From Clostridia bacterium (GTDB taxonomy: Bacteria; CBDUZB01; JAGLHV01), in NCBI GenBank assembly GCA_030595925.1, contig JAUVLC010000070.1, positions 1 through 13,243 on the forward strand: DNA of 13,243 bases, given 5' to 3'. The notes below the pieces were generated by a model. It ran no database searches. It was not told the DNA's origin and was given only the letters and a program-made list of their open reading frames with translations. This document shows positions 2,822-13,013 of this stretch, one piece after another. Every line of letters begins with the position of its first letter. Positions within the stretch are counted from its first letter, which is position 1. Both the position numbers and the translations under genes were made by a program.

Positions 2822-2837
2822 TAGTATTGTCAAAAAT
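2822..2837 (+). repeat. TAGT-n(3)-GTCAAAAAT box, copy 1
   Basis: TAGTATTGTCAAAAAT lies left of the DUF559 cassette. An inverted, slightly shorter copy lies right of the cassette (3453-3465) and a third copy lies at 6093-6108. It could mark the outer ends of a larger mobile block, but the sequence is short and AT-rich. Confidence 0.3.
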
Positions 2838-2943
2838 ATTTGATGTTTAATTTATAATTTGTATAATTTACCAACGAGAATATTTGTTTCGTTTTGTATT
2901 CCCGTCGTCCTCCCCCTTTTTTTAAAAATGAATCTATGTTTTT

Positions 2944-2974
2944 CCCCCTTTGAAAAAGGGGGCTAGGGGGATTT
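2944..2974. repeat. Left 31-bp inverted repeat of the DUF559 cassette
   Basis: It begins CCCCCTTTGAAAAAGGGGG, then CTA, a run of five G and ATTT. It is identical over all 31 bases to the reverse complement of 3341-3371. The first 19 bases are themselves a near-palindrome able to fold (CCCCCTTT against AAAGGGGG). It is not followed by a T run on the minus strand, so it does not look like a standard terminator. A partial CCCCCTTT copy lies just outside at about 2912-2919. Confidence 0.9.
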
Positions 2975-2977
2975 TAT

Positions 2978-3337
2978 TCATATTCTTTCTTTTACTGCCT
3001 GATAAATCACTTCCATAACAGAATCCAGTTCTTGCAAAACTTGTAGATTATTAAAACGCAATATATATAATCCCTCGTTCTTCAAGTATATATCTCGTTG
3101 TACATCTTTTTGTTCCTGACCTGTTTCCTTATGTTGCGATCCGTCCACTTCTACTACAATCTTTGCTTGGGATACATAAAAATCTACAATATAGCTCCCA
3201 ATAGGCTTCTGTCGATAAAATTGGACCTTCAAAATTTGTTTTCCCCGTAATCCTGCCCATAATGCCCTCTCACTATCCGTCATTTCCCTGCTTAATCGAC
3301 AAGCACTGTGTTTTAAATTCGCATTGTATTTTAACAC
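2978..3337 (-). CDS. DUF559 domain protein, Vsr-like endonuclease
   Basis: 119 residues, the usual length for free-standing DUF559 (PF04480) proteins, which have a PD-(D/E)XK/Vsr-type nuclease fold. Family landmarks are in order: MTDSERALW (19-27, conserved E23), FYRQKPIGSYIVDFY (40-54, catalytic-type D52), KIVVEVDGSQH (59-69, E63 and D65) and RD (81-82). The active-site residues look complete. The start is GTG; AGGGGG from the flanking repeat is the likely ribosome binding site. The protein is probably a DNA nicking or cleaving enzyme of unknown target. The gene sits alone between inverted repeats and is not coupled to neighbouring genes. A repair role is possible by analogy with Vsr, but its setting favours a selfish or homing-like role. 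Confidence 0.85.
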   Translation of the reverse strand: MLKYNANLKHSACRLSREMTDSERALWAGLRGKQILKVQFYRQKPIGSYIVDFYVSQAKIVVEVDGSQHKETGQEQKDVQRDIYLKNEGLYILRFNNLQVLQELDSVMEVIYQAVKERI

Positions 3338-3340
3338 CTT

Positions 3341-3371
3341 AAATCCCCCTAGCCCCCTTTTTCAAAGGGGG
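3341..3371. repeat. Right 31-bp inverted repeat of the DUF559 cassette
   Basis: It begins AAATCCCCCTAGCCCCC and ends TTTTTCAAAGGGGG, an exact reverse complement of the left repeat. On the minus strand it immediately precedes the nuclease gene, and its G run probably serves as the Shine-Dalgarno element. Confidence 0.9.
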
Positions 3372-3430
3372 GAGATATTATTCCTTTTTCAAAGGGGAGA
3401 GATATTATTCCTTTTTCAAAGGGGGAAATT
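3355..3430. repeat. About 27-bp tandem repeat of the outer half of the inverted repeat
   Basis: Three successive copies of CCTTTTTCAAAGGGG are spaced about 27 bases apart, joined by near-identical AGATATTATT linkers. The first copy is the end of the right inverted repeat. This looks like slippage or repeated end-duplication at that end; nothing comparable is seen at the left end beyond a single CCCCCTTT. Confidence 0.8.
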
Positions 3431-3564
3431 ACTTTTCATATTTTTTCATCTAATTTTTGACACTACCACATAAATTTATTATGCTGATATCATTTTATGA
3501 CATTTTTTATTACATAACATTGTTAAATAGTTAAAATGTTATTAAGAATATTCCTTCCCTTGAT
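3431..3564. other. Intergenic stretch with a TAGTGTCAAAAAT box and weak dyad
   Basis: No coding frame is convincing here. It contains the inverted copy of the TAGT/GTCAAAAAT box (3453-3465) and a weak dyad ATAACATT/AATGTTAT (3514-3521 and 3535-3542). With the transposase remnant (3565-3790) and the empty AT-rich stretch 3791-3869, it accounts for the gap between the DUF559 cassette and the AlbA_2 gene. Confidence 0.5.
3453..3465 (-). repeat. TAGTGTCAAAAAT box, copy 2 (inverted)
   Basis: Read on the minus strand this is TAGTGTCAAAAAT, matching copy 1 except for three missing spacer bases. Copies 1 and 2 face each other across the DUF559 block. Confidence 0.3.
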
Positions 3565-3869: not shown

Positions 3870-5162
3870 CTAAAGTTTTCTTTCGATTAATTTTTTTTGC
3901 CACATATTAATGGTTTCTTCAGCTATGTCATCACAATTAAATACCAAAAATATTTGTTTAACAAACTTATTAGCAATTTCTTTATAAAAAGCTCTAATAT
4001 CAACAAATTTTATATCTTCTTTTATAAATACTGAGCTCTCTTTGGAAACATACGTACCATGAAGAATACCTACCCCAAAAGAAACCAAATTTCTTTCCTT
4101 TGTGCCATTTAATCTTATTTCAATATGTAAACTTTCATCTTCGGCAAGAATATTCTCATAATATCTTTTGAAAAAAATAAAAAATTCCGTTATTGCGTAA
4201 ATTGTAGAAGTAAATGATAAAACTGATTTACCATTATGTCTTTGTGTATCTTCCCAAAACGCCCTTTTCCAAACAAATAATCCACACCTGTAAGCTCGAT
4301 AACCTTCGAGAGCATTATCCATGGTAAAGGATTCTCTTCCATTCATAAAATTAAAAACATTCTCCCTATCAGTATGAGGAAAATTCCATCCCCTTAAATC
4401 TACTTCTGCCTCCTTTATTACTTGTCCAATCTTTAATTGGTCTGTAAATCTTTCTCCATCATAACTTGTAGGATATACCACAACTTCCCAGAAACCACCT
4501 TTTTGTAATTCGTCTCCTATACTTTCCTCTAAAAACTTATCCGCTTCTATTATTTCTTGACTATAATTTTCTTTTGATTCATCAGAAGTCTTCAAAGGTT
4601 TACCTTTTATTAATCGTGCAATAGAATTTAATAGTTCATCTCCTTTTTTGGCTATTGCTCTTCCTAAAAATTCCCGCATATTTTCCGAAGAAGAGATGAT
4701 TTCAGTAGTTGCTTTATCGGTTCTAATATAAATTTGTCCACTTTTTAAAATTTGCTTATTATCCGATGTAAATCCATTTTTCTCACAAATTACAGGTATT
4801 TCTTGAAATTCAGACACATTTATAATAATAAGACATTTATCTTTAATTTTTTCCTTATAAACTTGACAGGTTATCTTAGGGTCCGAATATTTATGGATAT
4901 AATCATTAATCTTAGTTTGGTTGAAAGACTTAAAATCTTTTTCTGAAACCCCAATAAATTCAAACGTTTCATCCTTTACCCCAATTATAATTCTCCCGCC
5001 ATCTTGCGTATTGGACATTGCAAGAATATCCTTAACTATGTTTAATTTATCCTTGTTAGAAGGGTCATCCCAATTAAGACATTCTTTATAATCTAAATTT
5101 TTCGTTTCTGTCTTCTGTTCTAATAACCGTTTTATGTCTTCTTCCTTTATTCCTTCAATCAT
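3870..5162 (-). CDS. AlbA_2 (Schlafen-type) domain protein with long C-terminal region
   Basis: 430 residues. Residues about 12-125 are an AlbA_2/Schlafen-like domain (PF04326): acidic ETKNLDYKE (19-27), ILAMSNTQDGGRIIIGVKDE (46-65) and GQIYIRTDKATTEI (142-155). Members bind or cut nucleic acid, or act as putative ATP-binding regulators; the activity here is unknown. Residues about 195-430 contain VDLRGWNFPH (255-264) and a GYRAYRCGLFVWKRAF stretch (288-303), a pattern I associate with other AlbA_2-linked proteins of unknown function. The start has a clear AGGAAGA eight bases upstream. No partner is overlapped; Fic lies 174 bases upstream. Context points to a role in defence or stress response, by inference only. 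Confidence 0.8.
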   Translation of the reverse strand: MIEGIKEEDIKRLLEQKTETKNLDYKECLNWDDPSNKDKLNIVKDILAMSNTQDGGRIIIGVKDETFEFIGVSEKDFKSFNQTKINDYIHKYSDPKITCQVYKEKIKDKCLIIINVSEFQEIPVICEKNGFTSDNKQILKSGQIYIRTDKATTEIISSSENMREFLGRAIAKKGDELLNSIARLIKGKPLKTSDESKENYSQEIIEADKFLEESIGDELQKGGFWEVVVYPTSYDGERFTDQLKIGQVIKEAEVDLRGWNFPHTDRENVFNFMNGRESFTMDNALEGYRAYRCGLFVWKRAFWEDTQRHNGKSVLSFTSTIYAITEFFIFFKRYYENILAEDESLHIEIRLNGTKERNLVSFGVGILHGTYVSKESSVFIKEDIKFVDIRAFYKEIANKFVKQIFLVFNCDDIAEETINMWQKKLIERKL

Positions 5163-5336
5163 TATTTCTTCCTGTTCTTCCTGTTATTTTCCCCTCATTA
5201 TTGTACTATCCACAATATCTATTCATTCTTTTCTTTCCGGAAATCATTTTTACGCTTAGATTTTTTTATTCCATATATAACAATAAACTGCCAAATCACT
5301 TTTGTGATAATTTCAAATTCTTATTCAATCCGGAAT

Positions 5337-6071
5337 CTATCCTTTTAACAGCCGCAAATAATCCTTTTGCGTTTCTTTTAACGCCCTTGCTATAAACCTT
5401 ACAAAATCCCTATGATCAGTATGTGCCTTCTCTATTTTCTGGATATACTCTCCACGCAAAACAGGAGGAATGAGGGCTATAACATATCCTTTTTGTAAAA
5501 AAATCAAATTCATTAAAAGCCGGGCGACCCTTCCATTCCCATCGATAAAAGGATGAATAAATACAAATTCCTTGTGTACCAAAGCAGCATATTCTACAGG
5601 ATGATAATTCTTGGCTAATTCTTCCAATCTACCTACAAATTTTTCCATAAGCAGAGGAACCTTTTCAGGAATGGGAAGACTATATTGAGAACCGGATATA
5701 AAAACTCTTTCTTTTCTATATTTACCGGCTTCCTTTTCACTAATACGCTTGTAAAAAAGTTTGTGTAATTTTTTAATACTCCCTTCGGTAAGAAAAGCTT
5801 TTTTTTTCACTAATTGATACATAAAATCATAAGCTTCACTGTGCCCCAACGCCTCATAATAATCTTTAATCGGCTTACCGCCAATAGTTATTCCATCCTC
5901 CAAAATCACCTTAGTCTCTGTCTCAGTCAAGGAATTTCCTTCTAAAGCATTGCTGGTATAAGTCAAACCTATTCTATAATATTCTTTAAATTCTCTAAAC
6001 AAATGTTTCGATAACGGTCGAAAAGCATCAATTTCTTTTTGCAAAACATCTATCTCGTCAAATATTTTCAT
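5337..6071 (-). CDS. Fic family protein (class II, self-inhibited), putative AMP transferase
   Basis: 244 residues. The Fic core is intact: HPFIDGNGRVAR (173-184) carries the catalytic histidine, the anion-binding loop and both arginines. The N-terminal inhibitory helix motif is present as TSNALEGN (39-46), that is S-x-x-x-E-G, where the glutamate normally blocks ATP placement, so this is a class II Fic with its own brake. Fic enzymes usually transfer AMP, sometimes another phosphate group, onto a hydroxyl of a target protein; the target cannot be read. The ATG has AGGA about 9 bases upstream. No DNA-binding tail is fused, unlike longer 300-370 residue Fic proteins. It is unlinked to an antitoxin gene, as expected for class II. 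Confidence 0.9.
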   Translation of the reverse strand: MKIFDEIDVLQKEIDAFRPLSKHLFREFKEYYRIGLTYTSNALEGNSLTETETKVILEDGITIGGKPIKDYYEALGHSEAYDFMYQLVKKKAFLTEGSIKKLHKLFYKRISEKEAGKYRKERVFISGSQYSLPIPEKVPLLMEKFVGRLEELAKNYHPVEYAALVHKEFVFIHPFIDGNGRVARLLMNLIFLQKGYVIALIPPVLRGEYIQKIEKAHTDHRDFVRFIARALKETQKDYLRLLKG

Positions 6072-6092
6072 TATTTATTCCTATCTCCGCCC

Positions 6093-6108
6093 TAGTAAAG
6101 TCAAAAAT
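6093..6108 (+). repeat. TAGT-n(3)-GTCAAAAAT box, copy 3
   Basis: TAGTAAAGTCAAAAAT lies 14 bases before the first REP-like hairpin and upstream of the Fic gene. It matches copy 1 at 13 of 16 positions. Function unknown. Confidence 0.3.
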
Positions 6109-6121
6109 GTTTTATTTTTTG

Positions 6122-6144
6122 GTAGTCGCCCACCTAAGGCGGAC
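6122..6144 (+). repeat. REP-like hairpin, copy A (GTAG followed by imperfect hairpin)
   Basis: GTAG is followed by TCGCCCACCTAAGGCGGAC, which folds through CGCC against GGCG with a seven-base loop. A GTAG tetranucleotide 5' of a GC-rich hairpin is the hallmark of REP elements mobilised by REP-associated tyrosine transposases. It is strikingly GC-rich against its surroundings. Confidence 0.5.
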
Positions 6145-6190
6145 ATTTTTGTATAATAATTTCTTCTAAGTCAAAATCCAACAAACCTTT

Positions 6191-6243
6191 AAACACATAC
6201 TCTTCCTAAGTATCAATTAAACCTTTTAAGGTAATATGTGTTT
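6191..6243. repeat. Dyad between the two REP-like hairpins
   Basis: AAACACATA (6191-6199) pairs with TATGTGTTT (6235-6243), with a 35-base interior that contains the palindrome CCTTTTAAGG. It occupies the space between the two REP-like hairpins, so the whole 6122-6277 segment could fold as one structured BIME-like unit. Confidence 0.4.
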
Positions 6244-6253
6244 CCTTTCCCCA

Positions 6254-6277
6254 CGCAGGCTAAAGCCTGCGGCTACC
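6254..6277 (-). repeat. REP-like hairpin, copy B (inverted partner)
   Basis: CGCAGGCTAAAGCCTGCG gives a perfect 8-bp stem with a two-base loop. On the minus strand it is preceded by GGTAGC, so GTAG again lies 5' of the hairpin. Copies A and B point in opposite directions, as in a bacterial interspersed mosaic element. Copy B lies about 30 bases past the hepT stop and could slow or end transcription or protect the mRNA end. Confidence 0.65.
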
Positions 6278-6307
6278 ACATAAAAATCTTATGATACAGT
6301 CTTTTCC

Positions 6308-6655
6308 TTAGATTTCCTTAAAATCTTCCATTATTTTTTGAAATTTAGGCTTGATTTCCGGAATTTCTTTTTTCACCGTGTCCCAAACAATCTCTAATTT
6401 AACACCGAAATACTCATGGATTAGTTTGTTTCTCATCCCTGCAATATTTTTCCAGGGAATTTCCGGATATTTTTTCTCTATTTCTTCCGGAATATTCTTA
6501 ACCGCTTCGCCGATAATCTCTAAACCTCTTACAACTGCAAAGACAGTTTTATCATCTTTACTAAATTCATCGAAATTCATATTCTCCGTAAATTTGCTTA
6601 CCTTATTCATTGCATCTAAGATATCTTCAATATAATCACCATACTCCCTTTTCAT
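6308..6655 (-). CDS. hepT: HepT-like toxin (DUF86, HEPN RNase)
   Basis: 115 residues, the normal size for HepT. It carries the catalytic R-x4-H-x-Y motif as RNKLIHEY (75-82) in an all-helical HEPN fold. In the characterised MntA/HepT pairs HepT is an RNA-cutting toxin, and MntA silences it by adding AMP units to the tyrosine of this motif, here Y82. Its ATG overlaps the mntA stop by four bases (ATGA), with a strong AAGGAGG inside the end of mntA, so synthesis is coupled to the antitoxin. All key residues are present, so the toxin is probably functional. Confidence 0.92.
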   Translation of the reverse strand: MKREYGDYIEDILDAMNKVSKFTENMNFDEFSKDDKTVFAVVRGLEIIGEAVKNIPEEIEKKYPEIPWKNIAGMRNKLIHEYFGVKLEIVWDTVKKEIPEIKPKFQKIMEDFKEI

Positions 6656-6945
6656 AAATAAACGACCTCCTTGAGGATATGCTTCCCTATCCGTGGTTTT
6701 AAAACTCCTTTCATTACAAGATCAACCTTAATACCTAAAATATTACTTAAGTAATTTTCCAGTTCTACAAACATTAACAACCCTATACTTTTTTCAAATT
6801 CCACAAGTATATCTAAATCACTACTTTCTTTTGCCTCCGACCTCAAATATGAACCAAATATGCCCATACCTTTTACTCCATATTTCTCCCTCAAAAATTT
6901 CTTGTTTTCCTCAAGAATCTTTTTTATTTCACTAAGGTTTTTCAT
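6652..6945 (-). CDS. mntA: MntA-like antitoxin, minimal nucleotidyltransferase
   Basis: 97 residues. The nucleotidyltransferase signature G-S-x10-D-x-D is complete: G31-S32 followed by D43-L-D45 in SSDLDILVEF, with the third acidic residue in IKVDLV (D75). Family members add AMP to HepT and so neutralise it. It is the first gene of a two-gene operon with hepT, with a four-base overlap. AAGGGAAG lies about 6 bases before the ATG. Regulation may come from a weak promoter at 6998-7026. Antitoxin-first order and the intact active site agree with a working module. Confidence 0.92.
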   Translation of the reverse strand: MKNLSEIKKILEENKKFLREKYGVKGMGIFGSYLRSEAKESSDLDILVEFEKSIGLLMFVELENYLSNILGIKVDLVMKGVLKPRIGKHILKEVVYL

Positions 6946-6997
6946 AATCTTCCCTTTATCATTATGTAATTTTTAGTAGTTTTATCCTCTTAACAAT

Positions 6998-7026
6998 ATC
7001 TTATGAAATTTCGCCCACAAAATCAA
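6998..7026 (-). promoter_or_regulatory. mntA: Possible promoter for mntA-hepT
   Basis: On the minus strand TTGATT is followed 17 bases later by TAAGAT, about 50 bases before the mntA start. The -35 matches four of six consensus bases and the -10 four of six; in AT-rich DNA this is suggestive only. Confidence 0.3.
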
Positions 7027-7109
7027 GATATTATTTACCTCGTTTGTAAGACTTTTAAAATGACCTTTCTAACGGGTACGGGTATATCCATTGAGTTTTT
7101 GGAAGTTTT

Positions 7110-7361
7110 TTAATTATTTTTAATTATTTTTTCAACTTCTTCTTTTGCTTCTTTCAATCCAACATTCTTTATTTCACGATATAATTTAATTGCTTCTATC
7201 ATATAGCCTTCATTCACCAGTTTTTTTACATCATTTAGAGTTCCTGTTCCTTTTTTGGGATAAAGCCCAATTTTTCTTAATTTGCTTATTTTGTTTTGTG
7301 CAATAATAAAGGCACTGACTAATACAAAAATTATTACTATGACTATGTATAATAATGTCAT
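7110..7361 (-). CDS. Small membrane-anchored protein with L7/L12 C-terminal-like domain
   Basis: 83 residues. Residues 3-21 are one membrane helix. Residues about 43-80 (DVKKLVNEGYMIEAIKLYRE, then GLKEAKEEVEKI) match the fold-defining pattern of the ribosomal L7/L12 C-terminal domain (AIK-x-x-R-E-x-T-x-x-G-L-K-E-A-K), the part that contacts translation factors. Short membrane proteins with this tail occur in many bacteria and their function is not known to me. GGAGGAGG lies five bases before the ATG, inside a 38-codon ORF whose TGA overlaps the ATG (ATGA), so translation may be coupled. It is not a ribosomal protein: it is too short and membrane anchored. Confidence 0.7.
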   Translation of the reverse strand: MTLLYIVIVIIFVLVSAFIIAQNKISKLRKIGLYPKKGTGTLNDVKKLVNEGYMIEAIKLYREIKNVGLKEAKEEVEKIIKNN

Positions 7362-7474
7362 TTGCCTCCTCCATAATTTAATTTTTCCAACTCTTTAATC
7401 ATTTGCCTCATTATAAAAGATTTTTCTGCTCTTCCAGAACCGGTTATTATAATAATTATTTCATTTTTATCCAT
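7358..7474 (-). pseudogene. 38-codon remnant of an AAA-type (AAA_14-like) ATPase with broken P-loop
   Basis: Minus-strand frame from ATG at 7474 to TGA at 7358. It reads MDKNEIIIIITGSGRAEKSF and continues IMRQMIKELEKLNYGGGK. The N-terminus resembles AAA_14/DUF4143 ATPases, which start with a hydrophobic strand, TG-x-R-R-x-GKS and then L-x-x-Q-x-I-x-E-L. Here the Walker A GKS is EKS, one base change from GGA to GAA, and the rest of the protein is missing. Its upstream 80 bases copy the leader of the AlbA_2-HATPase gene. It ends in ATGA over the next start, so it may survive as a leader ORF rather than be pure debris. Family assignment is inference from a short stretch. Confidence 0.4.
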
Positions 7475-7549
7475 TTTGTCAACTATATTAGGTAAAATTT
7501 ATAAATTTTGCCTAATATGCTCTGTTAAATATAACAATATTATAAAAAA
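7466..7549 (-). repeat. Duplicated leader, copy 1
   Basis: About 73 of 84 bases match 8931-9014 in direct orientation. The repeat covers the start codon and first codons (ATGGATAAAAA), a palindrome and about 45 AT-rich upstream bases. Copy 1 lies before the broken P-loop ORF; its Shine-Dalgarno position has AGTT where copy 2 has AAGG. Confidence 0.85.
7485..7518. promoter_or_regulatory. 34-bp near-perfect palindrome, probable operator
   Basis: The core AAAATTTATAAATTTT (7494-7509) is a perfect palindrome. It extends outwards through one mismatched pair to ATATTAGG on the left and CCTAATAT on the right. It lies 10 bases upstream of the ATG of the broken P-loop ORF. A dimeric regulator could bind here; the winged-helix protein encoded at 7557-8939 is the obvious candidate. 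Confidence 0.55.
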
Positions 7550-7556
7550 CATATTT

Positions 7557-8939
7557 TTATAACACCTTCCAATATCCACCTTTATCAGAGCCTACCCTTT
7601 TAAGTAATCCTTTTTGTTTTAGTTTAGCAATATTCTTATCAATGGCTGTCGTACTAATACCAATCTTATCCGACAATTCTCTTTTGGAAATATAGGGATT
7701 TATTTTTACCAAATCTAATATTTTCTTTTGACTTTCTACCAACCCATCTACCAACCCATCTACCAACCTTTTCTGACGACCTGTTCTGACTTTTTCTTCC
7801 TTCACCTCTGCCATCTTCAAATATTCTCTGCTTTGTTTAAAAACAATATAAAAATGGGTATCCGTGTATTCTATTTTTGGGTAAGGACAATTATCTCTTT
7901 CACAAATATCCTTCATTCTCTTCATACCCAACCCAATTTTTTCGCCAAAATGAATACGCAAAAATAAATCTGCAATAAGATGATTTCTTCTAAAAATAGT
8001 TTTACCTAAAATAAACTTCTTTGGCTTAACCCAAATGTTCTCAAGCTGAATTTTGTCAGGAAAAAATTTTAATATATTATTATGCCCATGCTCAAAATAA
8101 TCTTTGTGCATCACAGAGTTTATAACTGCTTCCCTCATTGCCTCGAAAGAGTATTCATAAATATTTTCTCGCTGAGGCTTACCTGTAATTTTATAGGCTA
8201 CCTTTGCATATAATTTTACAAAATCCATAACCTGCTCAACAACTTCAAATAGCCCACCTGTTATTTCTTTCCTATCAATTATATCTACGCCTTCTTTGTC
8301 TTTGAAAAGGACTACAGTAAAGACTGACCAGGGAATTAACTTCTGCGGATCCTTAGCAAAGAATAGAATTCCGGCATTGCTAAAATAAATTCTTCTTCCC
8401 TGAGTTTCTACCACTCCTAAATTGAAAAGAATTCTTTCGGTGGATAAAGTCTTAGAAAGACCGGCAAATTCTAAAAATTTATTTAATCCCTCTCTATTAA
8501 AGTCTTTTGGATATTTAAATTTTGTATTTATTAGCTCATCAAATCTCACCTTTCCTTCTGATTTAAAGAACTCTAAAATTTCGCTTCTGGTCATCTTTTG
8601 AGAATTTGAGCCGATTCTTTTATGAAATCCGGACGAACACCTATAAGGCTTATCTTTTCCTTCTTTTACTTTTATAATTAAAATATTTTCTAACGACTCA
8701 ATGCTAACTTTTATAGTCGGGTCACAATTTCTAACAATATTTTGAACATCAGATTTTAATCTATTCGTTATCCTTAACCCTTTAATTTTACCCTCATCGG
8801 TCACTCCTAAAAATAATTTTCCTCCGGAAGAATTAGCAAAAGCAACAAACTCTTTTTCGATACCTGACAAGCTTTCTTTAAATTCTATGAAATATCCTTC
8901 GCCCTCTTTTAGAATTAGAGCAAGCTCTTTTTTATCCAT
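7557..8939 (-). CDS. AlbA_2 - HATPase_c_4 - winged helix protein (COG2865 type)
   Basis: 460 residues from the ATG at 8939. An in-frame TTG at 8960 would add seven codons, but AAGG lies 8 bases before the ATG and the duplicated leader keeps this ATG. Residues 8-125 are AlbA_2 (FIEFKES 17-23, FANSSGGKLFLGVTDEG 34-50). Residues about 265-345 are a GHKL-type ATP-binding region (EAMREAVINSVMHKDY 266-281, LENIWV, GLGMKRM 337-343). Residues 405-460 are a winged helix (ISKRELSDKIGISTTAIDKN 417-436). Such proteins are annotated as putative transcriptional regulators and recur near defence genes; their activity is poorly known. A LVDGLVDGLV repeat links the last two domains. A palindrome just upstream suggests self-regulation. 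KAP is the next gene upstream. Confidence 0.85.
   Translation of the reverse strand: MDKKELALILKEGEGYFIEFKESLSGIEKEFVAFANSSGGKLFLGVTDEGKIKGLRITNRLKSDVQNIVRNCDPTIKVSIESLENILIIKVKEGKDKPYRCSSGFHKRIGSNSQKMTRSEILEFFKSEGKVRFDELINTKFKYPKDFNREGLNKFLEFAGLSKTLSTERILFNLGVVETQGRRIYFSNAGILFFAKDPQKLIPWSVFTVVLFKDKEGVDIIDRKEITGGLFEVVEQVMDFVKLYAKVAYKITGKPQRENIYEYSFEAMREAVINSVMHKDYFEHGHNNILKFFPDKIQLENIWVKPKKFILGKTIFRRNHLIADLFLRIHFGEKIGLGMKRMKDICERDNCPYPKIEYTDTHFYIVFKQSREYLKMAEVKEEKVRTGRQKRLVDGLVDGLVESQKKILDLVKINPYISKRELSDKIGISTTAIDKNIAKLKQKGLLKRVGSDKGGYWKVL
7736..7767. repeat. 12-bp in-frame tandem repeat in the AlbA_2-HATPase gene
   Basis: CTACCAACCCAT occurs twice and then for 8 more bases. It encodes LVDG-LVDG-LV between the ATP-binding and winged-helix domains. 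The unit length keeps frame, so copy number can change without breaking the gene and would alter linker length. Confidence 0.85.
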
Positions 8940-9014
8940 TTTATCAACCTTATTCGTCAAAATTTATAAATTTTGCCTAATATACTCTGTTATATATACT
9001 AATATCATAAAAAA
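8931..9014 (-). repeat. Duplicated leader, copy 2
   Basis: Direct repeat of 7466-7549. It forms the start region of the AlbA_2-HATPase gene and fills most of the gap after the KAP stop. It probably holds that gene's promoter, but no convincing -35/-10 pair stands out in the AT-rich run. Confidence 0.85.
8959..8974. promoter_or_regulatory. 16-bp perfect palindrome, probable operator
   Basis: AAAATTTATAAATTTT is identical to the core of copy 1, but the outer left arm has drifted (TATTCGTC instead of TATTAGGT). It lies 19 bases before the chosen ATG. Preservation of the core in both leader copies, while flanks vary, favours a binding site. Confidence 0.5.
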
Positions 9015-9093
9015 TATTCTCTATCAATGTAAACTTGAAATTATAATCGGTTTTTATAAAAAATTTTCGAATATCAAACATGTTATATCAATT

Positions 9094-11823
9094 TTACTGT
9101 TTTTTTCCATCTTTGTTTTTTTTGTCCTCACATTGTTTTAAAAAAATTTCTATCACTATTTTTTCTTCACTTGACAAAGAATTATCCTCCTTGAACTTTT
9201 CTGCTAATTTTTGGAATTCTGCAAGATTGTAAATTAGATTAAGTTCTTCGGATTTAAAAATAAAACCCAATGAAGAGTTTTTCTTTGTATAGTAACTAAT
9301 AAATTTAATAAACTTTTTGGCATCATCTTTAATAAGTGAAAAAACATAATTATTTACAGTTTCATTATTATCTCCTGTAAACATCTTCCAATTAGTTGCC
9401 CACTGGTATAAGACAAAAACCCAATCTCTTTCTTCTGGTAATTCCTCAAAAATATCCTTTTTCCCATCAACAAAATATTTTTTTAATCGGTTTGCCACGA
9501 TATCTTGCATCTGTCTAATTTCTACTGAACTATAAGTCTTTTCCGTTTTACAAGAATATACAATATCAACAGCGAAAGGGAAATCTGAAATATTGGTAAT
9601 AACTTCTTTTAATATAGCCTGCCTTTCATTCTTGTCTGTTTTCTTATTAATTAGATGTAATAGAAAACTTTCACTTCTATCACCTCCATCGCTTAAGGAA
9701 CCCCCTATACCCTTTCTATGAAATTTATCAACATTCTTATAAATAACCCTTACTATATCGGGAACTATCTCTTCCTGTATTTTATCCATAGACAATATAA
9801 GTTTATTAAAAAAATCCGGTAATTTTTCTTTGTTTTTCATATAAAAAATACTTTTCTCAATAATATTTTCCCTCTCAGTTTTTTCTGCTGAATGCCACAA
9901 TTTTAGAGTTGTTTTCATATATTCATCAGATATTTCTAATGAAGGCACTTTCAACATAAAGTAATTTCTGAAATATTTAGGATTCGTAATTCGTTGTTTT
10001 AGGATGTCATTTCCATAGGTCGCTCTATATTCACGAAAAGCATTTCCCACTTCAACAAAGAAGATGGTCTTCAATAATTCTTCTAAAATTTTTTCTTCTT
10101 TTTCATTTTTAACTATATCTTCGATATGTGTCTTAATCTCTGAATATCTTTCTTCATCTGTGAGAGAAATAAGAGGAGACACAAAATAATCCGAATTACT
10201 CCCGTCCAAATGAATATAAAACCAAGGCTTTTGCCAAATATCGTTATAAACATTTGGATAAAAATTTCTAATTACCTCTAAAATAAAGAAATCGCTTAAA
10301 TTCACCTCACTTTTGATTGGCGAAAGTGTTGAATATATACCATTTAAAAACCTTTTCACCTGACGCAAAGTCTTAAATAATTTACCGATTTGCGTTTGGT
10401 AAATAGAATTAAACTCCTTATAAAATCTTTCTTTATCTTCTTGACTAATCCCAATTACATCAAAAAAATTATTTTTAGATGTTTTCCAAAATCCTACAAC
10501 TTTAGTTTTTTTCTTTTTATCGGTTATAAAATCAAAATCTTTTTCTGTAATACCGACCTTAAACTTAAGAACTTTTTCCTTTGGATCAACAAATATATCC
10601 ATCCAATTCTCATTTGAATATTTCAGAATAATATCTGTAAATGATTTTCGGTAAATACTACCGTCGAGATGAATATCCAAAAACTGAACAAGAGCTCTTT
10701 GTTCAACTGCCGGTAACGAAATAGGTTTCTGTACAATTTTTTCTAAGAATTCCGAGGCAACATTTAACAAATTCTGAATTATAACGGGATCAAAACTTAA
10801 AATAAAAATTGTATTTTTAAATTTTACATTAAGACGGATAAGTTTAAAAACAAGTAAAATTTCTTTTGCCTGAAGTCTATCAATATCATCAATAAAGATA
10901 ATAATTTTCTTTTCTGTCTGATCTATATATGATTGAATTCTTTGTTGGGTTTCCTCTATAGACTCCTCCATATGAGAAAAGTCCATTTTTATTCCTGCTT
11001 GGGACACCCCCAAAGAAATTAGATTATGATACTTTGTAAAAGTTTCTTCAAGATTGGGAAAGATAAATTTTTTACTAAGAGTTTGTTCAATCTGTTTATA
11101 AAAAGCAGTTAAAACTGCTTTTTCATTTCCAAAATACCACGGATTAAAATTTACAACTAAAAAATCATCCTTCTCTTCAATCTTATCCCTCAATAAGTTG
11201 AGGACCGATGTTTTACCCTCACCCCATTTCCCATTTAATCCAAAGACAAAAGAATCCTCAAATTCCAACTTTATAATGTTCTGATATAAATTTTCAATAA
11301 AATCTTCTCTTCCCAATAAATCCTGCTCAGTAGACTTGATAGGTTCATCAATCAGTGAATAATTATCTACAGGGGTAACCTCTGGGGTTCTTTCTTTTTT
11401 CTTACAAACTAAAATAAAAACACCCCCGAAAAGTATTGATATAATATTAATCCCGGCAAATATATTAAATTTTGAGGATGAATCAGGAATATACTTTTTT
11501 TGAAATATAAAAATTAATAAAGCAGAAAAAACAATAAAGAAAATTATAACAAAGGGATAAATACAGGGTGGTTTTTTTAATTCATAGGTATTTTTACATC
11601 TTTGCCACAAATCTTGTGCCTCTCCCCATGAATATATGATAAAAATGAATACAAGGGCTGTTACTGCAATAAAAGGTCCCCAGATGTCTATATTTAAAAA
11701 TTTTTTTATACATTCCAGATTTATTAAAACAGGAAACAACAAAAACACAAAAAATATTGACATCAATCCCACAACACAAAAATTCCGAATGTTTTTTAAA
11801 ATATAATCTATAAATTTCTTCAT
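9094..11823 (-). CDS. Membrane-anchored KAP family P-loop NTPase
   Basis: 909 residues. Four hydrophobic helices open the protein (about 15-35, 48-65, 89-108, 120-140), followed by the KAP NTPase (PF07693). Walker A is GKWGEGKTS (198-206) with the typical tryptophan; FNPWYF (226-231) follows; Walker B is IIFIDDIDR (308-316), then ILSFDPVIIQ (341-350). Further on, TLRQVKRFLN matches the family's RDVKRFxN element before an F-I-L-E-x-I-R helix. The C-terminal 350 residues are helical and unrecognised. KAP NTPases sit at the membrane; one known member, PifA of plasmid F, excludes phage T7. The target here is unknown. The ribosome binding site is weak (GATAATTAAAA). The next gene downstream is the AlbA_2-HATPase protein, which has its own leader. 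Confidence 0.88.
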   Translation of the reverse strand: MKKFIDYILKNIRNFCVVGLMSIFFVFLLFPVLINLECIKKFLNIDIWGPFIAVTALVFIFIIYSWGEAQDLWQRCKNTYELKKPPCIYPFVIIFFIVFSALLIFIFQKKYIPDSSSKFNIFAGINIISILFGGVFILVCKKKERTPEVTPVDNYSLIDEPIKSTEQDLLGREDFIENLYQNIIKLEFEDSFVFGLNGKWGEGKTSVLNLLRDKIEEKDDFLVVNFNPWYFGNEKAVLTAFYKQIEQTLSKKFIFPNLEETFTKYHNLISLGVSQAGIKMDFSHMEESIEETQQRIQSYIDQTEKKIIIFIDDIDRLQAKEILLVFKLIRLNVKFKNTIFILSFDPVIIQNLLNVASEFLEKIVQKPISLPAVEQRALVQFLDIHLDGSIYRKSFTDIILKYSNENWMDIFVDPKEKVLKFKVGITEKDFDFITDKKKKTKVVGFWKTSKNNFFDVIGISQEDKERFYKEFNSIYQTQIGKLFKTLRQVKRFLNGIYSTLSPIKSEVNLSDFFILEVIRNFYPNVYNDIWQKPWFYIHLDGSNSDYFVSPLISLTDEERYSEIKTHIEDIVKNEKEEKILEELLKTIFFVEVGNAFREYRATYGNDILKQRITNPKYFRNYFMLKVPSLEISDEYMKTTLKLWHSAEKTERENIIEKSIFYMKNKEKLPDFFNKLILSMDKIQEEIVPDIVRVIYKNVDKFHRKGIGGSLSDGGDRSESFLLHLINKKTDKNERQAILKEVITNISDFPFAVDIVYSCKTEKTYSSVEIRQMQDIVANRLKKYFVDGKKDIFEELPEERDWVFVLYQWATNWKMFTGDNNETVNNYVFSLIKDDAKKFIKFISYYTKKNSSLGFIFKSEELNLIYNLAEFQKLAEKFKEDNSLSSEEKIVIEIFLKQCEDKKNKDGKKQ

Positions 11824-11903
11824 TTTTAATTATCTATTCAATTATTTTTTTATCTTCTTTGTCTGATTTTTTTTATTTTTAAATTTTATCATCAAATATT
11901 TAG

Positions 11904-12380
11904 CTATTTCTCATCTAATCCAAATCTTAATTCCAATTGTGGATTTTGAGACTTTGCTTCCGCTAATATCTTTTGCACCAAAGAAATCGCATCGGAGAAA
12001 CATTTATCTGCTTCAGATTTCGATAAAAGCACCCCCGCCTCATAAGTCATTCTATTGCGTTTTCTACGCATTGTTTCAAACCGCTCTGTTAGATTCTTAT
12101 ATTTGCTTCCTAAAACAACACTGGTTATTTCTACTACAGTTTTATGTTGTGCTCCATCATCCGGTCTATAGCCCTTTAACAGAAGCAATGCCCGTCTTGC
12201 CCTTTAACATCGCCATATAAGCTAACAAATAAGCCGCTCTCTGGGCAGTGTGGATATCTTTTTGGCTTCCTCAAGGTCAAATACCGCCTGTCTTAACAAA
12301 GCTTCTACCTGAATAATACCTGCTTTTTGTTTTTTTACTTTACCTTCTTTCTCCAGTTTTTTAATAAGCTTATTTATCAT
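11904..12380 (-). pseudogene. HEPN domain protein with two compensating frameshifts
   Basis: The true start is the ATG at 12380, which overlaps the upstream nucleotidyltransferase stop by 11 bases, with AAGGGA about 7 bases before it. The first part reads MINKLIKKLEKEGKVKKQKA to TLPRE. Frame is lost near 12235-12240 (one base missing), AAYLLAYMAML follows in another frame, and frame returns near 12203-12205 (one base extra in AAAGGG), continuing RARRALLLLKGYRPDDGAQH to the stop. Undoing the two indels gives a seamless 158-residue HEPN protein with KGYRPDDGAQHKT and MRRKRNRMTYE, typical of HEPN partners of MNT genes. Uncorrected, in-frame TAG and TAA truncate it after about 52 codons. Either a real pseudogene or assembly errors. 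Confidence 0.8.
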
Positions 12381-12936
12381 TCAATTTCCCTTTTAAAATT
12401 ATTATTTTATCTTTAAGAATTATGTTTAAAAATCCACCTTCTTTTTTTCTTTCTTTATTAAATTCTTTTTTTGTATAAAAAGTAAAATTAATTTCTCTGT
12501 TTAATCTTGATTCTAAAATACGAATCCGGCTAATAAATTTATCCTGAGGAAATTTGCCCACTAAAACTAAGTCCACATCGGACATCCTCTTTTCTTTATC
12601 TTTTGCATATGAACCATAAATAAAAGCAAAGGATATCCCTTTATATTGAGAAACTAAATCTTTCAAGCTCCCCTGGATACCTTCTGTTTTAAAAATAATC
12701 TTTTTTAGTTCTTTATACAGACAATAAGCTTTATTGGGAGAATAAAATTTTATTCTTCCTTTTGAAAAGGAATTATATATGCCTTCTTCTTCCAATTTCC
12801 TGAGTTCTCTGGAAAGATTCCCGGCATCTTCATCAATAAGACCAGCTAATTCTCTGACATAATAATTTTCATCGGGATGGGTAAAGGAATAGGTTAATAA
12901 TTTTTTTCTTAATTTTGTTTTAAATAACAAAGACAT
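12370..12936 (-). CDS. Winged helix - nucleotidyltransferase protein (MNT of an HEPN/MNT pair)
   Basis: 188 residues. Residues about 8-75 are a winged helix (YYVRELAGLIDEDAGNLSRE, 25-44), of the ArsR-like type often fused to minimal nucleotidyltransferases. Residues 100-185 are the transferase: GSYAKDKEKRMSDVDLVLVG (108-127) fits G-S-x10-D-x-D exactly. REINFTFYTKKEF follows, as is usual in this subfamily. By analogy with MntA it would modify and restrain the HEPN protein encoded next, and the winged helix probably binds the large palindrome at 12952-12999 to control the operon. AGAGG lies 11 bases before the ATG, a rather long spacing. Overlap with the HEPN start suggests coupling. Confidence 0.85.
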   Translation of the reverse strand: MSLLFKTKLRKKLLTYSFTHPDENYYVRELAGLIDEDAGNLSRELRKLEEEGIYNSFSKGRIKFYSPNKAYCLYKELKKIIFKTEGIQGSLKDLVSQYKGISFAFIYGSYAKDKEKRMSDVDLVLVGKFPQDKFISRIRILESRLNREINFTFYTKKEFNKERKKEGGFLNIILKDKIIILKGKLNDK

Positions 12937-12951
12937 CTTTTAAAAAACCTC

Positions 12952-12999
12952 TTTTTGTTGTATAATTTACATCAAACAATGTAAATTATACAACAAAAA
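12952..12999. promoter_or_regulatory. 48-bp palindrome (21-bp perfect arms), probable operator
   Basis: The left arm (12952-12972, core TTGTATAATTTACAT) is the exact complement of the right arm (12979-12999), separated by CAAACA. It lies 16 bases upstream of the winged-helix nucleotidyltransferase gene and covers its likely -10 box and transcription start. That placement is typical of an autorepressor operator. It could also form a hairpin in the 5' leader. Confidence 0.75.
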
Positions 13000-13013
13000 A
13001 CATATTAATTCAA
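12985..13013 (-). promoter_or_regulatory. Promoter of the nucleotidyltransferase-HEPN operon
   Basis: On the minus strand TTGAAT (13013-13008) and a perfect TATAAT (12990-12985) are 17 bases apart. The -10 box lies inside one arm of the 48-bp palindrome, so repressor binding would block polymerase. Confidence 0.55.

Follow-up and report, generated by a model that had tools for sequence, protein, structure and literature searches.

A small nuclease gene that lies exactly between two perfect copies of an inverted repeat raises the question of what ties the gene to the repeats, and whether the two spread together. Such a locus, with a gene of the DUF559 family, is present in the window analysed here (the whole stretch of DNA, 13,243 nucleotides, taken from a Clostridia genome that we call the source genome).

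The gene and its flanking repeats

A repeat search of the window returned two arms of 31 nt that are complementary in 31 of 31 bases (100%) and lie 366 nt apart, while the remaining long inverted pairs of the window are at most 84% complementary, save one 21-nt hairpin. Three bases separate the stop codon of the gene from one arm and three bases separate its start codon from the other, which confirms the exact packing reported in a preliminary description of this DNA. The encoded protein matches Pfam DUF559 with E = 1.2e-33 (115.7 bits against a curated cut-off of 20.6). The inner end of the gene-upstream arm, which runs into the start codon as AGGGGGATTT-AAG-GTG, is a plausible ribosome binding site, as had also been suggested. 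The coordinates are collected in Table 1.

Table 1. Features of the DUF559 locus in the window (positions of the whole stretch).
Feature	Position	Strand	Remarks
Whole TIR-bounded element with the bracketed DUF559 gene	2823..3467	.	645 bp; TIR pair in the window
Left terminal inverted repeat AGTATTGTCAAAAAT	2823..2837	+	2 mismatches to GGTARTGTCAAAWAY
Left (gene-downstream) TM/PIT repeat	2944..2974	+	CCCCCTTT-gaa-AAAGGGGG-cta-GGGGGATTT; class II layout per PMC4666352
DUF559 (PF04480) PD-(D/E)XK nuclease gene	2978..3337	-	GTG start, 119 aa, motif IVDF...VVEVDGSQH
Right (gene-upstream) TM/PIT repeat, inward facing	3341..3371	-	inner arm AGGGGGATTT, likely Shine-Dalgarno of the DUF559 gene
Two more degenerate outer half-repeats, 27-bp tandem, CCTTTTTCAAAGGGG[A/G]GAGATATTATT	3372..3425	.	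direct repeat family in the window
Right terminal inverted repeat GGTAGTGTCAAAAAT (minus-strand reading)	3453..3467	-	exact match

By its base pattern, each 31-bp arm is one complete class II intrastrand triplex motif of the BoxC/PIT/TM type, repeats known from E. coli since the 1990s, present in hundreds of genomes and linked to genome instability (PMC4666352). The class II layout is Y-loop-R-spacer-R, in which the third, purine-rich arm mirrors the second (PMC4666352), and the parts of the left repeat in Table 1 are, in order, a pyrimidine arm, a loop, a purine arm, a spacer and a reverse-Hoogsteen arm; the motif accounts for the entire 31 bp. A scanner that we wrote for this layout detected it on both sides of the gene, and the hairpin of the window repeat folds as DNA when its fold is computed. 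Triplex formation in vitro has been demonstrated for the E. coli motif (PMC4666352). A search of Rfam gave no match.

Beside the right arm, the outer half of the repeat recurs in tandem with a 27-bp period over 3356-3443, and similar half-repeats are present in two other copies of the unit (L077 and L085); repeated breakage or slippage may have left them behind. The rest of the window (3870-13000) is rich in defence- or toxin-antitoxin-like genes, among them Schlafen/AlbA_2-type genes, a Fic gene, a HepT/MntA-like pair and the gene of a P-loop NTPase that resembles PifA/QatA. A 92-nt direct repeat (86%; 7461-7552 and 8926-9017) with the palindrome AGGTAAAATTTATAAATTTTGCCT brackets a gene of 467 aa (7557-8960) and is a possible duplicated operator, and a perfect 21-bp inverted repeat with a 6-nt loop (12952-12999) is located upstream of the MntA-like gene (12370-12936).

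Copies of the repeat and the gene in the source genome

The 27-nt core of the repeat occurs 103 times in the source genome at up to 3 mismatches, and a reversed control pattern occurs 0 times, which excludes a chance origin of the repeat. Of 21 copies examined, 20 lie outside any open frame of 100 aa, and the window repeat therefore shows the many dispersed, largely non-coding copies by which BoxC/PIT/TM repeats are recognised. By our own count, about 30 of the 103 adjoin a DUF559 copy, complete or partial, and the remaining 70 or so are solo. Some 16 places carry an intact or decaying DUF559 gene of the window type, or a fragment of one; every copy with enough sequence is bracketed by the repeats in the same orientation, and where a copy is cut by a contig end, the repeat flanks the side that remains. 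Most of these copies are frameshifted or deleted, the intact ones being those in the window and on contig 184. Between these two, dN/dS equals 0.059/0.131, so selection acted on the protein during at least some of its history.

The search of the host and its relatives proposed in the preliminary description thus found the gene-plus-repeats unit at many unrelated positions, and across phyla. It had also been proposed that a repeat scattered without DUF559 genes would speak against such a unit. About 70 of about 103 copies are indeed gene-less, yet a system like RAYT/REP would show the same picture.

A larger element carries the unit in the source genome

Homology between the DUF559 copies reaches past the repeats, up to terminal inverted repeats (TIRs) of the GGTARTGTCAAAA type, which measure 13-15 bp in this element family. 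The TIR-bounded element with the bracketed gene is approx. 510-660 bp long and makes 8-bp target-site duplications (TSDs). Genome-wide, the TIR pattern gave 80 matches vs. 4 in the control. Two sister copies are flanked by perfect 8-bp TSDs, TTAATAGA at one (631 bp, C184) and AAAACGAG at the other (509 bp, C163), the perfect-TSD copies being labelled L077 and L088. Among 40 candidate TIR pairs, the duplications of 9 agree in at least 7 of their 8 bases, against a control rate of 0.2%; at the window copy, no recognisable TSD was found. Both hallmarks of a TIR-bounded DDE-type transposon or MITE, the TIRs and a duplication of fixed length, are thus present in the sister copies. In the source genome the bracketed gene is cargo of a larger TIR element and, since TIRs and TSDs enclose it, the TM repeats are not its transposition ends there. 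The idea that gene and repeats alone form a minimal self-propagating unit is not borne out by these copies, as they sit in the larger element.

Other sequences bounded by TIRs of the GGTARTGTCAAAA family are MITEs (120-320 bp), a 1.8-kb element in which a DDE transposase has decayed (rve_3 remnants, TSD TATTTGTA), and Y1-transposase genes. The family of the DDE enzyme could be resolved in part only (rve_3, weak IS240); an IS1595-type transposase was considered as the source of the TIRs, and none is present in the source genome. The Y1 (RAYT-like) genes inside GGTARTGTCAAAA TIR elements are located at 2899-3546 of locus L150 and 1103-1699 of L159, and an HUH transposase as cargo of an element with TIRs and TSDs looks unusual. 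A divergent DUF559 gene, 34% identical (L078, 1827-2404), has the same TIR family with a 7/8 TSD and is bracketed by a different, C/G-rich type of hairpin repeat; because of this different repeat type, capture of DUF559 genes by TIR elements may have happened at least twice in the source genome.

From these data it could be argued that only the TIR element with its 8-bp TSD is mobile, its transposition probably catalysed in trans by an rve/IS240-like DDE transposase, and that DUF559 and its repeats are passengers that take no part in it. The perfect-TSD copies, the excess of matching TSDs over the control and the MITEs, the 1.8-kb rve_3 element and the Y1 genes within the same TIRs all agree with this, and the multiplication within the source genome would be accounted for. 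The host-specific bracketing of DUF559 genes in unrelated phyla (see below) would not, and neither would the many repeats of the source genome that lie outside TIR elements, so as an explanation of the whole we regard it as rather unlikely.

Bracketing of DUF559 genes across genomes

In unrelated genomes, the repeats that flank DUF559 genes share the layout of those in the window and differ in sequence. With our scanner, inward-facing motifs within 250 bp of a gene were scored. Among 80 DUF559 loci from many phyla, 52 had inward motifs on both sides, against 1 of 427 shifted windows of those loci (Fisher 4e-49), a sample possibly biased by its ranking with a query whose C-terminus is translated repeat. 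The fairer sample consists of 31 standalone DUF559 loci found by the Pfam HMM alone, with the source genome excluded: 21 of them are bracketed on both sides and 25 on at least one side, and about one fifth have no flanking repeat. TM motifs on both sides were found at 0 of 30 Vsr genes (PF03852) and 0 of 30 Y1/RAYT genes (Y1_Tnp, PF01797), while DUF559 domains within long ORFs were bracketed in 1 case of 13. Y1/RAYT enzymes were also considered as the true partner of the repeats and rejected, both on this count and because the Y1 elements of the source genome do not have such a repeat.

The median gap from the end of the upstream repeat to the start codon is 12 nt. At the other end of the gene, the ORF reaches the start of the downstream repeat or passes it in 71 of 85 loci. 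Many DUF559 proteins (those of L110, L106, L112 and others) have C-termini with PHPNPLPQGERE-like tails, translated from the repeat. In the cyanobacterial plasmid loci L297, L298 and L294, DUF559 adjoins DUF499/DUF1156 or BREX-like methylase genes, with C/G-rich repeats nearby.

Similarity is higher between the two repeats of a locus than between repeats from separate loci (0.74 vs. 0.61, 0 of 1002 permutations), and repeat similarity follows protein similarity (Mantel r 0.48, 0 of 2000 permutations), to both of which the shared ancestry of hosts and loci may contribute. Repeats of the CCCTCTCC type are present in 11 of 98 genomes surveyed, and a strong standalone DUF559 is present in 8 of these 11 against 11 of the other 87 (p 6e-5); in the remaining three (G026, G042 and G070) no DUF559 match was found despite the repeats. 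The pairing of DUF559 with TM repeats is, in our opinion, well supported.

The pairing could also mean that the repeats are expression or insulation signals, a ribosome binding site before the gene and a terminator behind it, for a nuclease that spreads horizontally, e.g., as a repair or defence enzyme, with no mechanistic tie between the two. The inner arm is a plausible Shine-Dalgarno sequence, one terminator-like site is present at the right arm in the window, and the authors of the Enterobacter 638 genome presumed termination (PMC2869309). On the other hand, T runs are as a rule missing behind the hairpins in the source genome, and the tests cited in PMC4666352 showed neither promoter nor terminator activity for PIT elements. 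Moreover, most copies of the repeat are away from the gene, and the repeat sequence covaries with the nuclease. We regard the proposal as quite improbable.

Filled and empty sites

Compared with a genome of the same genus (G001), homology of the window stops at position 2828, at the edge of the left TIR, and no pre-existing repeat is present at the homologous site of G001. In Deinococcus psychrotolerans, a DUF559 gene between inverted repeats of ~55 bp, with triplex motifs that face outward, separates paaD from paaZ; the two genes are adjacent in Deinococcus sp. QL22, which does not have the unit and has no pre-existing repeat between paaD and paaZ. The junctions represent insertion of a whole unit and do not themselves demonstrate movement directed by the repeats. 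Comparison of filled and empty sites, as the preliminary description had advised, therefore gave relatives without the unit (G001, QL22), while a base-exact empty site was found neither at paaD-paaZ nor between genomes G097 and G098. In G097 the unit lies at a rearrangement breakpoint relative to G098, and the repeats at the compared loci look inherited and decaying, not freshly inserted; this pair was set aside as evidence of insertion because of the breakpoint and the ancestral-looking solo repeats.

The DUF559 gene of E. coli K-12, ycjD, has repeats on one side only: it runs at its end into a degenerate repeat, and the motif TM_ECO no. 9 (1,351,204-1,351,239) is ~170 bp beyond its stop codon. 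The ycjD region is kept in ~3,300 of 5,426 E. coli genomes and was rejected as a clean filled/empty site, as strains without ycjD hold an efflux operon there. Gene-less, MITE-like pairs of inward-facing repeats, which had been proposed as something to look for, exist in E. coli (PMC4666352), and we saw one between ygfF and gcvP; as a junction it is not clean, since one strain is without the whole intergenic stretch.

These sites bear on the possibility of homing, in which the nuclease would cut solo repeats as empty sites, break repair would copy the gene into them from a bracketed locus, and solo repeats would be landing sites. Solo and filled repeats do coexist in one genome, and the EDxHD homing nuclease I-Bth0305I (3r3p) is a relative of the protein. 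With no repeat at the QL22 and G001 sites, homing into solo repeats is disfavoured there, and some 70 solo repeats would be a heavy burden if they were freely cut. We consider homing unlikely.

The DUF559 protein

Profile searches matched PDB 3hrl, a solved DUF559-like structure, with 5.8e-38, and the mobile-intron nuclease I-Bth0305I with 1e-5, and the conserved nuclease positions E, D, ExD and H are kept in the window protein. The Pfam search gave DUF559 and a weak MTES_1575 only, and the protein does not count as a Vsr (PF03852) member. It is already known that YcjD belongs to the PD-(D/E)XK superfamily and that its profile detects Vsr (PMC1189080); the description of the protein as a Vsr-like nuclease holds in the sense of a PD-(D/E)XK protein related to Vsr and to a homing endonuclease. 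Caulobacter cells without ScmA need the DUF559 protein VsrA for their DNA-damage response (PMC12907096).

With such relatives, the nuclease could be a host enzyme of repair or genome hygiene, one that clears away or resolves triplex repeats and is drawn to them instead of spreading them. Its Vsr-like fold, the instability of TM loci in E. coli (PMC4666352) and the tie of VsrA to DNA damage would suit this role, which leaves the exact packing between inverted repeats, the decay of multiple copies and the sporadic distribution unexplained; we give it very little credence.

A possible mechanism

Starting from the observed architecture and its recurrence, the specificity against control families, the covariation of repeat and nuclease, the dispersal of solo repeats and the TIR element with TSDs, we infer recognition, nicking and a role in spreading the repeats by the nuclease. 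By analogy with the RAYT enzymes, standalone DUF559 proteins would be the cognate nucleases of BoxC/PIT/TM repeats, which they recognise, nick and help to disperse; we think the chances of this are evenly balanced. The wider form is put forward tentatively, at slightly less than an even chance: as structure-specific nucleases, they would recognise intrastrand-triplex repeats and disperse them through bacterial genomes. Enzyme and repeat would then make up a second system of this kind, evolved independently of REP/RAYT and parallel to it, and DUF559 would be the source that BoxC/PIT repeats have lacked so far, those of E. coli (with YcjD) included.

To hypothesize, two inward-facing repeats would hold a DUF559 gene between them and provide its ribosome binding site, often together with its final codons. 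The protein would most likely recognise the folded repeat (a hairpin with a purine third strand) when it is single-stranded, e.g., on the lagging strand, and nick it, and repair or recombination at the nicks could then duplicate or relocate pairs of repeats, whether or not the gene goes with them. Solo repeats might be seeded across the genome in this way. RAYT enzymes are thought to act likewise on REP/REPIN sequences, but they are HUH tyrosine transposases, where DUF559 is a hydrolytic PD-(D/E)XK enzyme. In the source genome, the bracketed gene was multiplied as cargo of the larger TIR/DDE-type element.

For the long-known BoxC/PIT repeats, whose origin and means of spread were reported as unknown (PMC4666352), DUF559 would be the first candidate enzyme, and the function of this widespread nuclease family is itself not settled. 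A link between them puts both questions within reach of direct experiment.

Comparison with known systems

Like the arms in the window, BoxC/PIT/TM repeats are complete class II motifs, dispersed, mostly intergenic and sometimes in inverted pairs. The window repeat is a C5TTT/A3G5 variant, unlike the CCCTCTCCC/GGGAGAGGG of BoxC/PIT/TM. Holder et al. (2015) found no mobility gene nearby and left the origin open (PMC4666352); no gene is tied to the repeats in that work, whereas here a nuclease gene is bracketed by them across phyla. In the open-access literature searched on DUF559 and on the repeat, we found no report that links them.

The window protein is a clear member of the DUF559/YcjD/COG2852 'very-short-patch-repair' family (PDB 3hrl, Caulobacter VsrA; E 1.2e-33), which earlier work treats as Vsr-like repair, with repeat bracketing unmentioned in the papers found. 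It has profile similarity (E 1e-5) to I-Bth0305I, a nuclease of a mobile element; the window gene differs in that it is not in an intron or intein, and the orthologous sites without the unit (G001 for the window, QL22 for the Deinococcus locus) hold no repeat. The GGTARTGTCAAAA MITE/DDE element is the carrier of the unit in the source genome, and it differs from a usual MITE/DDE insertion sequence as it carries DUF559 and the repeats instead of a transposase.

A close parallel in organisation is REP/RAYT (TnpA-REP): in REPtrons, the cognate repeats are dispersed and also stand on either side of the nuclease gene (PMC6006769). Both have inverted hairpin repeats on either side of a nuclease gene, many solo repeats elsewhere, a repeat type specific to the enzyme, and gene-less inverted doublets of the repeat. 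The DUF559 unit differs in its PD-(D/E)XK enzyme, which is not HUH-Y1, and in its triplex-type repeats, which bracket none of the 30 Y1 genes. Since the DUF559 enzyme is of another fold, DUF559-TM is not a member of the REP/RAYT system, and we propose it as an analogue; if the link holds, it would be a non-HUH counterpart of RAYT/REP.
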